Assembly (NCBI GenBank): GCA_945871905.1
Contig: CAMBXL010000001.1
Location: 62,001 to 126,000 of the forward strand
Direction of reading: 5' to 3'
DNA length: 64,000 nucleotides
From: Chitinophaga pinensis
GTDB lineage: Bacteria; Bacteroidota; Bacteroidia; NS11-12g; UBA955
Shown here: one piece after another, positions 17,523 through 20,411 of the stretch
Position numbering within the stretch: the first letter of the stretch is position 1
How the letters are laid out: each line of letters starts with the position of its first letter
Notes under the pieces: generated by a model
Told to the model about the DNA's origin: nothing
Seen by the model: only the letters and a program-made list of their open reading frames with translations
Databases searched by the model: none
Made by a program: the position numbers and the translations under genes

Positions 17523-18059
17523 TTAAAGATAAAAAAACTGTGGAGGCGGTTCGCTTGATAAAATAAAGGGAGATAGATACTGATGGTCTAAATAATTTGC
17601 TCTAAAAAACAGGGAATTGTTTTTAGAAAAAAGTAAACCGATGTCGGGCGCAAGGTATTTTAAAGTAAGGAGTTGCGAAAAATCAATATGTTTATCTGTT
17701 TGTTTAGAATGCTCACTAAAGCAGGAACTAACCATTTTGTCCAAATTGGCAAATAGTTGTTTTTCTTGAATGTCATTTACGCAATAAAACAAAAAAGTAT
17801 TTTGATTGATAGTGTCAGTTCTTACAATGTCATACATGCTGCCTTTGTATGAAAACTCTCTTGAGTGTTTCCAGTCAAAGTCCAATTTGTTAGAAGAATT
17901 AAATTCAATGGCAATAAGCTCATTTTGAGGAACACCATTTTTAATAAGATGTTTAATTTCCTTTCTAATAGCTTGTTGCTTGACTTTGAAAACAATCAAA
18001 AAGCCAGTCAGCTGAAATAAAATAATAACGCTTAATAATATGGCTATTGTTCTTTTCAC
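17523..18059 (-). CDS. Membrane-anchored protein with Pro-rich C-terminus, TonB-receptor linked
   Basis: I do not recognise a named family. The 178-residue protein has one N-terminal membrane helix (residues 4-25), followed by a hydrophilic domain predicted to lie in the periplasm, and ends in SSEPPPQFFYL. It lies directly upstream of, and co-directional with, the TonB receptor gene. I recall similar small anchored proteins with proline tails beside Bacteroidota TonB receptors. An accessory role in uptake is an inference from position. Confidence 0.65.
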   Translation of the reverse strand: MKRTIAILLSVIILFQLTGFLIVFKVKQQAIRKEIKHLIKNGVPQNELIAIEFNSSNKLDFDWKHSREFSYKGSMYDIVRTDTINQNTFLFYCVNDIQEKQLFANLDKMVSSCFSEHSKQTDKHIDFSQLLTLKYLAPDIGLLFSKNNSLFFRANYLDHQYLSPFILSSEPPPQFFYL

Positions 18060-18112: not shown

Positions 18113-19105
18113 CTATTTATTGTAAGTTAAAAATTCGTCAACCATATTTTCACTACCAATTACTACAGGTGTTCTTTGGTGTAACTCGGTTGGTTGAATA
18201 TCCATAATCCTAATAGAACCATTCGTTGCTTTACCGCCTGCTTGTTCAATTAAAAAGGCCATCGGATTGCATTCATATAACAAACGAAGTTTACCATTTG
18301 GTGCAGAAAGGGTAGGAGGATATAAATAAATGCCGCCTTTTAATAAATTTCTGTGAAAGTCGGCAATTAATGAGCCTATGTATCTAGCTGAATAGGTTTT
18401 CTTTGATTCTCCTGTGGTTTTGCAATAGTCAATGTAATTTTTGTAAGATTCCGGAAAATCAGCATAGTTGCCTTCGTTTACAGAGAATATTTTTCCGTTT
18501 TTAGGAATTTGAATATCAGGGTGAGAAAGACAGAATTCCTGAATAGAATCATCCAAAGTGAAAGCGTTTACACCACTTCCTGTTGTGTAAACGAACATGG
18601 TAGCGGTTCCATAAATGATATATCCTGCTGCAACCTGACAATTTCCTGGTTGTAAAATATCTTCCATGGTTACTGCTTGGTTCGGTGAACGTCTTTTGTA
18701 TATGGAAAAAATAGAGCCAATTGAAGCATTAACATCAATGTTTGAAGAACCATCTAAAGGGTCCATTGCCAAAATATATTTAGCGTTTTCGGCACCTTCA
18801 CACCAATGGACATCTTCCGACTCTTCGGATAAAATACACACACAGTCACCGCTCATTTCAAGTAATTTGATAAAAACTTCGTTGGAGATAACATCTAATT
18901 TCTTTTGTTCTTCTCCTTGAACATTTGTGTTGCCAAAATCTCCTAAAATATCTATTAATCCTGCTTGTCTAACATCTCTATTAATCATTTTGGCGCCTAA
19001 TTGTAAATCTCTGAAAATTCTTGACAAACTTCCTTGAACAAAAGGGAACATATTTTGCTGATCGCTTATAAATTGATTAAGTGTTGTTATACTATTTTTT
19101 TTCAT
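18113..19105 (-). CDS. fbp: Fructose-1,6-bisphosphatase class 1
   Basis: FBPase removes the 1-phosphate from fructose 1,6-bisphosphate, the committed step of gluconeogenesis. The 330-residue protein has the metal site motifs SEESEDVHW and [24 protein letters not shown], and the sugar-phosphate segment [23 protein letters not shown]. Length is normal. It is divergent from lysC with only 40 bases between the start codons and abutting promoter boxes. Confidence 0.97.
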
Positions 19106-19118
19106 GCTTGATGTATTT

Positions 19119-19126
19119 TACATTTG
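19119..19126 (+). promoter_or_regulatory. -7 box (TAnnTTTG) for lysC, abutting the fbp box
   Basis: TACATTTG followed by C, 19 bases before the lysC ATG at 19146. It directly abuts the opposite-strand fbp box. Confidence 0.55.
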
Positions 19127-19134
19127 CAAAAGTA
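19127..19134 (-). promoter_or_regulatory. -7 box (TAnnTTTG) for fbp, abutting the lysC box
   Basis: TACTTTTG on the minus strand, 21 bases before the fbp ATG at 19105. Together with the lysC box it forms a 16-base near-palindrome, TACATTTGCAAAAGTA. Confidence 0.55.
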
Positions 19135-19145
19135 AAATAAAAAGT

Positions 19146-20411
19146 ATGAAAGTCTTTAAATTTGGTGGAGCTTCTGTAAAAAATGCTGAAGCGGTAAGAA
19201 ATGTAGGGGAAATTATCTCTAAATATTCAAGCGGTAAATTGTTAGTTGTAATCTCTGCAATGGGCAAAACTACTAATAAGTTGGAAGAATTAATGCAGGC
19301 CTACTTCTCCAATAACACAAGTTCAAAGGAAATAGTCATTAAGGAATTAAAACAATTTCATTTTGGCATAGCAGATGCATTAATCCCTGATAAAAAACAC
19401 CACATTTATTCCGATTTGGAAGATTTGTTCATGGAATTAGAGTGTCTAGTGGATAAACAATTCGAAAGTGTAAGTTATGATGAAATGTATGATGGAATAA
19501 TCTGTTATGGAGAATTGTTGTCAACTAAAATTGTAAGTGACTATTTACATAGTATAGACGTGAAAACAAAGTGGGTAGACGCTAGAAACTTTATTCAAAC
19601 AGACAGTAATTTTAGAGAGGCAAGCGTTAAATGGAATGAAACTGAAGAAACTGTAAATAGAATTTTGAAGCCATTTATTGATAGAAGTATTGTAATTACC
19701 CAAGGTTTTATTGGTCGTGATGAAAAAAACAATACGACAACCTTAGGTAGAGAAGGTTCCGATTATACAGCGGCCATTTTTGCATATTGTTTAGATGCCG
19801 AAAATGTGACCATTTGGAAAGACGTGGCAGGTGTTATGAATGCCGATCCTAAAAGGTTTGAAAATGCTCAAAAATTGTCTTCCATCAATTACAATCAAGC
19901 CATAGAGTTGGCCTATTATGGTGCGTCTGTAATTCACCCCAAAACCATTCAACCACTGAAAAGTAAAAACATTAGTTTGTATGTTAATTCATTTATCAAC
20001 ATGGATGATGAGGGCACTGTAGTGAATAATCAAGCCGAAAATCTTAATCAGGCTTGTTATATTGTAAAAGAAAAACAAACGCAATTGTCGTTTTCAACCA
20101 AAAATTACTCGTTTATAGCCGAGGAAAATTTAAGTTATATTTTCGAAGCCTTTGCTAAACATAAAGTTAGAATAAATGTAATGCAAAATTCTGCCATTAG
20201 TTTTTCGGCTTGTTGCGATACTAAAGAAAATAAAATTGAAGACTTAATGAATGAATTAAAAGAGTATTTCATCATTGAATCTATTCCAGAATGTGTATTG
20301 TTAACTGTATATAATTCGACTCAAAATGAAGATTTGCCTTCAATTTATCAAAACAAAACAGTGCTTTTAAAGCAAATGTTAGGTCATACCATTCAAATGG
20401 TTATAAAATAG
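19146..20411 (+). CDS. lysC: Aspartate kinase (monofunctional)
   Basis: Aspartate kinase phosphorylates aspartate at the head of the lysine, threonine and methionine pathway. The ATG at 19146 gives 421 residues starting MKVFKFGGASVK, the family's nucleotide-binding start; upstream in-frame codons are intergenic. It has an amino acid kinase domain (TTLGREGSDYTAA near 200-212) and a C-terminal ACT region from about residue 310. The ACT region suggests feedback regulation by amino acids. No homoserine dehydrogenase domain is attached. Confidence 0.94.
   Translation: MKVFKFGGASVKNAEAVRNVGEIISKYSSGKLLVVISAMGKTTNKLEELMQAYFSNNTSSKEIVIKELKQFHFGIADALIPDKKHHIYSDLEDLFMELECLVDKQFESVSYDEMYDGIICYGELLSTKIVSDYLHSIDVKTKWVDARNFIQTDSNFREASVKWNETEETVNRILKPFIDRSIVITQGFIGRDEKNNTTTLGREGSDYTAAIFAYCLDAENVTIWKDVAGVMNADPKRFENAQKLSSINYNQAIELAYYGASVIHPKTIQPLKSKNISLYVNSFINMDDEGTVVNNQAENLNQACYIVKEKQTQLSFSTKNYSFIAEENLSYIFEAFAKHKVRINVMQNSAISFSACCDTKENKIEDLMNELKEYFIIESIPECVLLTVYNSTQNEDLPSIYQNKTVLLKQMLGHTIQMVIK

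Follow-up and report, generated by a model that had tools for sequence, protein, structure and literature searches.

The 16-mer at positions 19119-19134 of the window (the whole 64-kb stretch of DNA analysed here) is very probably the central part of a bidirectional promoter recognized by the primary sigma factor of Bacteroidota, an element by which the divergent genes fbp and lysC would most likely both be served rather than switched. The 16 bases, TACATTTGCAAAAGTA as read from the window, consist of a plus-strand box TACATTTG and a minus-strand box TACTTTTG with 0 bases separating them. A first-pass annotation had described these abutting boxes and a distance of 40 bases between the two start codons; both statements were confirmed from the window sequence, the 40 bases being 19106-19145. 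The features of the locus are as follows:

18113-19105, minus strand: fbp, class 1 fructose-1,6-bisphosphatase, 330 aa (PF00316, PF18913; NF006778)
19119-19126, plus strand: putative -7 box for lysC, TACATTTG; specified bases unchanged in 16/16 readable genus genomes
19127-19134, minus strand (read from 19134 to 19127): putative -7 box for fbp, TACTTTTG; specified bases unchanged in 16/16 readable genus genomes
19121-19122, minus strand: predicted fbp transcription start, 4-5 nt after its box (the F. johnsoniae/F. psychrophilum distance), inside the opposing box
19131-19132, plus strand: predicted lysC transcription start, 4-5 nt after its box (same distance), inside the opposing box
19146-20411, plus strand: lysC, monofunctional aspartate kinase, 421 aa (PF00696; TIGR00657)

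Prokaryotic bidirectional promoters are recognized by core promoter elements situated on both strands, at positions that overlap or adjoin, and this arrangement was found here. The exact 16-mer occurs as a single copy in the 2.5 Mb genome. The start codon of fbp is at 19105 on the minus strand. The start of lysC is most probably 19146, since ATGAAAGTCTT occurs at this place in 16/16 readable genomes of the genus; the mechanical ORF start, 19104, is probably too early. In the window, the fbp start codon overlaps that of the over-long mechanical lysC ORF on the opposite strand (CATG at 19103-19106), so that an automatic caller may make lysC 42 bases too long. The sole Pfam match of the lysC product is the AA_kinase domain (residues 2-280); the C-terminal ∼140 aa, the region where ACT domains would be expected, gave no Pfam match. 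A 178-aa ORF adjoining fbp (17523-18059, minus strand) has no match in Pfam or NCBIfam.

In the window as a whole the motif TAnnTTTG is at chance level (108 found vs 108.0 expected from shuffles, no enrichment). A single box near a start was therefore dropped as evidence by itself, and the case was built on comparison between genomes.

The genus set includes 17 genomes, of which 16 are readable at the fbp/lysC locus (G002, where neither gene was found, was left out). All 16 have TAnnTTTGCAAAnnTA between fbp and lysC; thus the 16-mer, whose conservation in relatives with the same gene pair the first-pass annotation had suggested checking, is kept in this form throughout the readable genus genomes. 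In a gap-free alignment on the palindrome, 12/12 specified bases are identical in all 16 genomes and 4/4 n positions are variable. If the 16 positions are taken as exchangeable, the chance that the four variable ones would be exactly the four n positions is 1 in 1820. The alignment rows were found by using the pattern itself; since all readable genomes matched the pattern, none was lost on this account. The n positions are never G on their own promoter strand in these 16 genomes, the window boxes included. Outside the palindrome, all 16 adjoining columns on the fbp side are variable, with the flank base being T in 15/16 genomes; on the lysC side most columns are variable, and two A columns (22 and 23) are invariant too.

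The housekeeping -7 element of Bacteroidota is given as TAnnTTTG or TAHHTTTG in work on B. fragilis, B. thetaiotaomicron, F. johnsoniae and F. psychrophilum; TAHHTTTG is the consensus of F. johnsoniae, derived from RNA-seq. The distance from box to start is 4-5 nt in F. johnsoniae, and the box is located at -12 to -5 in F. psychrophilum. Both window boxes have the TAHHTTTG form, the -7 element of a sigma-ABfr-type promoter. In 1.2 Mb of sequence from two genomes, TAHHTTTG was detected within 50 nt upstream of ORFs in 194 of 995 cases in the sense orientation and in 50 in the antisense orientation; in a window of equal size inside the ORF it was detected in 17 of 995 cases. As judged from this placement, TAHHTTTG is promoter-associated in these genomes.

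The -33 element of sigma-ABfr-type promoters (TTTG) was not seen in the window, where no TTG is present at the expected distance on either side. Among the 16 genus genomes, a TTG is situated 19-22 bp upstream of the box in seven on the lysC side and in two on the fbp side. The -33 element was not treated as defining, because it is weak in F. johnsoniae too, being described as not identified or much less evident. Sigma-70 region 3 has a single match in the genome, a protein of 287 aa with too little sequence to accommodate region 1.1; as judged from its sequence, it has the properties of a short primary sigma factor without region 1.1. Absence of region 1.1 is a trait described for sigma-ABfr. 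Overall, the element is similar to a Bacteroidota housekeeping promoter: each half fits the -7 consensus, the n positions are free of G within the genus, and the predicted leaders are short. It differs from such a promoter in that two opposed elements make one palindrome and that no clear -33 element is seen in the window.

In the order as a whole, a match to fbp was found in 99 of 108 genomes. We examined 98 of them: 91 with adjacent lysC and seven, all of genus g16, without it (G067, with an fbp match lacking a start, was left out). The 91 loci, G065, G066 and G080 included, are made up of 16 loci of the genus, 63 of a second set and 12 of a third set; the genomes are related, and the counts for the order are not independent. 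Each strand carries a strict box, with 0-7 bp between the two, in 39 of the 91 loci (16 + 18 + 5), and boxes of the relaxed form T[AT]nnTTTG, which was defined after the sequences were seen, were present on both sides at the same distances in 85 (16 + 62 + 7); the third set (n = 12) thus contributes five strict and seven relaxed pairs. Among the 52 non-strict loci, TTTGCAAA is present in 44, with the TA of one or both boxes degenerate; two more (G017 and G077) have degenerate TA and boxes 6 bp apart, and six fail even the relaxed form (G054, G062, G066, G068, G071 and G072), with a one-base defect in each by inspection.

In the second set, the TTTGCAAA centre with at least one degenerate TA was observed at 42 of 63 loci. 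All 18 strict pairs of this set have 2-7 bp between the boxes, and over the range from -20 to 60 no strict pair has a different spacing; for relaxed pairs, different spacings do occur, in 11 of the 63. In 200 dinucleotide shuffles of the 63 intergenic sequences, the mean number of loci with strict pairs was 0.07 (maximum 1), and that with relaxed pairs was 0.4 (maximum 2). When the first member of each genus was taken, strict pairs were found in 8 of 17 genera vs a shuffle mean of 0.012 (maximum 1). Of the 18 strict pairs of this 63-genome set, all of which are outside the genus, 3 have one box in which an n position is occupied by G.

In genera g4, g5 and g6 (e.g. L215, L222, L227 and L243), the lysC-side box reads TATTTTGC at 28 of 30 loci. 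This sequence is one base short of TAnnTTTG and formally matches TAnnTTGY, a motif ascribed to a probable alternative sigma factor in work on F. psychrophilum.

With a gap of ∼40 bp, two promoters are forced to be close by geometry alone. In genus g17 the gap between fbp and lysC is 95-103 bp. At L008 and L010, two loci from named contigs with intergenic sequences as in g17, the distance from the boxes is 43 nt to lysC and 58-59 nt to fbp, and the boxes face each other 6 bp apart. The 6-bp spacing was observed again in genus g18, in a 98-bp gap with intergenic G+C of 50%. As the facing pair is kept in these wider gaps, it behaves as a unit while the leader lengths change.

The named-contig fbp loci (at least 80) were left out of the 91-genome counts, six of the 80 being possible duplicates of counted genomes. 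Among the matches listed, lysC was present in the fetched flank at 21 loci, with a gap shorter than 300 bp at 10 of these; no locus of Pedobacter, Mucilaginibacter or Sphingobacterium had lysC among the fetched flanks. Strict boxes 0-7 bp apart were found at three of the ten loci with a short gap (L002, L008 and L010). Such a strict pair was not found at the other seven (L003, L005, L012, L048, L066, L068 and L079), four of which (L048, L066, L068 and L079) belong to other groups and have gaps of 92-254 bp.

The sister genus g16 shows the two genes apart: no lysC match was found within ∼400 bp upstream of fbp, and lysC was on another contig in the six genomes where it was located. Each of the g16 fbp genes (7/7) has retained a single strict box, 95-101 nt upstream, and lacks a partner box. 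Of the five readable lysC genes, four likewise have a single strict box, situated 6-7 nt from the ATG, and lack a partner (the sixth locus, L105, with 10 nt of upstream sequence, was not counted). Unlinked genes are thus without the partner box, and we conclude that the partner box goes with the partner gene.

This comparison of sequences supports the placement, in the first-pass annotation, of opposed -7 boxes for divergent fbp and lysC, and the pair, kept in relatives, may be read as follows. RNA polymerase with a sigma-ABfr-type factor would bind the 16-mer in either orientation, so that one -7 box would direct transcription of lysC and the other that of fbp. The two predicted starts are 9-11 bp apart, and the leaders would be ∼14-17 nt long. 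The usual melted span at a promoter is from -11 to +2; because the boxes abut, the ∼13 bp opened by a polymerase would be almost the same whichever way it is bound. A single polymerase at a time would occupy the element: as the first-pass annotation had stated, two polymerases could not be present at once, simultaneous binding being very probably impossible by the geometry of the predicted starts. At ordinary firing rates both genes would most likely be transcribed from one compact element, and exclusion would be relevant only under strong activation of one direction. The description of the site as ‘unusually compact’ holds only in a relative sense: the boxes do abut, but other abutting pairs exist in the genus, and relatives keep the facing pair in wider gaps.

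The expectation that both genes are served, not switched, is based on analogy with E. coli bidirectional promoters as reported by Warman, Grainger and colleagues (PMC12825309). Starts in the two directions are commonly 10, 18 or 23 bp apart, and both directions depend on one common -10 element, which is inherently symmetric. Five such promoters fired too rarely at their basal level for polymerases to compete; competition was observed only under strong activation of one direction. The fbp/lysC element resembles the promoters so described in having pseudo-symmetric DNA between divergent genes, predicted starts a few bp apart (9-11 here) and, as we expect, one polymerase at a time; it differs from a shared symmetric -10 element in that two complete boxes are placed face to face with 0-7 bp between them. 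TAnnTTTG is not self-symmetric, hence the two complete facing boxes.

The first-pass annotation went on to claim that gluconeogenesis and aspartate-family synthesis would be mutually exclusive in initiation. Such a switch has the bidirectional promoter in common with the explanation given above and adds to it that competition between polymerase orientations alternates fbp and lysC, the two pathways being antagonistic. FBPase and aspartokinase are both anabolic enzymes, as is generally known, and their joint expression is at least as plausible. The occupancy geometry agrees with a switch, and so does the competition that strong activation of one direction elicits in E. coli; against it, basal activity was too low for competition at 5/5 E. 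coli bidirectional promoters tested (PMC12825309). The claim is therefore left unsupported, and we regard a switch as very improbable.

Another reading is that one direction alone fires, probably that of lysC, the opposite box being a chance match or a remnant and its gene having its start at another place. Several genera do have a single strict box, and on the fbp side a -33 TTG is less frequent, but the invariance of both boxes in 16/16 readable genus genomes and the absence of the partner box where the genes are apart make one-directional firing highly unlikely.

There is very little probability that a dimeric transcription factor acts on fbp and lysC with the palindrome as its operator, the -7 likeness being secondary, and we rejected this model as the main reading: the genus 16-mer is indeed a nearly perfect palindrome (9/16 copies are perfectly symmetric) with symmetry reaching 18 bp (left flank T and right flank A, each in 15/16), but the spacing of the half-sites is not fixed, being 0, 2, 3, 5, 6 or 7 in different genera while each half keeps TAnnTTTG, the variable positions are exactly the n positions of the promoter consensus, and the unlinked genes of g16 keep a single box. 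Constant half-sites at varying spacing argue for two promoters and not for one dimer operator.

The bidirectional promoter with two facing -7 elements can be placed next to what is known. Bidirectional promoters as such were reportedly introduced in a 2021 paper. Our searches for literature on bidirectional or overlapping divergent promoters in Bacteroides, Bacteroidetes and Flavobacterium (the 2021 founding paper was outside their coverage) and on the fbp/aspartate kinase pair returned no relevant paper; these are weak negatives, and it is in this limited sense that neither a bidirectional promoter made of two complete facing Bacteroidota -7 elements nor one for this gene pair was found described. 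Since the Bacteroidota element, unlike the E. coli -10 element, is not symmetric, a conserved facing pair would present a separate route to two-way initiation. The fbp/lysC locus comes in natural variants, with spacings of 0 to 7 bp between the boxes, with half-sites that have degraded and with unlinked genes as controls, and could serve as a test bed for the onset of polymerase competition; the element, probably an ordinary promoter in function, is a clean object for such comparative work.

The pattern TANNTTTGCAAANNTA has seven occurrences in the 2.5 Mb genome. In the 17 genus genomes it was found 99 times (16 of these at the fbp/lysC locus) vs 9 times for the reversed pattern. In the same genomes a comparison pattern with one base inserted was found 53 times and its reversed form 35 times, while the composition-matched palindrome TANNTTTCGAAANNTA and its reversed form were found 11 and 20 times, respectively. 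Among 133 divergent intervals (1.2 Mb, two genomes), defined by a crude ORF caller, we detected four abutting pairs of the form TANNTTTG; an order-2 Markov simulation gave a mean of 0.12 and a maximum of 2 in 200 runs. For abutting TAHHTTTG pairs the count was 3 vs ∼0.18 expected per spacing under uniform placement (P ∼0.0008, or P = 0.014 without fbp/lysC itself). As evidence that abutting pairs recur at further divergent genes across the genus, these counts are suggestive, not strong. We inspected 24 other palindromes in three genomes (6 of G000, 12 of G001 and 6 of the 7 of G007); several were located inside ORFs or upstream of one gene only, so that a bidirectional promoter should not be deduced from the pattern by itself. 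Two G015 loci, one of them fbp/lysC, were retrieved alongside. A broader interpretation, which we consider rather doubtful, is that the facing boxes are a selected device kept over the whole order because the orientation of polymerase would couple (or trade off) the output of the gluconeogenic and the aspartate-family enzyme, and that abutting TAnnTTTGCAAAnnTA is a recurrent architecture of the unusual sigma factor of the phylum.

Two further abutting pairs from the same genus are similar to the fbp/lysC pair in having TANNTTTGCAAANNTA at divergent ORFs and differ from it in the genes. One (L113:1501-1516, i.e. G000 C2:93695-93710) is the perfectly symmetric TACTTTTGCAAAAGTA, situated 14 nt before a plus-strand ORF without a Pfam match; on the opposite side is the 5′ end of a weakly CcmB-like ORF (below the Pfam cut-off), which as called overlaps the palindrome, so that its true start is uncertain. 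The other (L153:1001-1016, G007 C5) is flanked by divergent ORFs, an ETF-domain ORF whose called start is 15 nt away and a TPR ORF whose called start is 10 nt away; its 16-mer is also present in the G010 genome.
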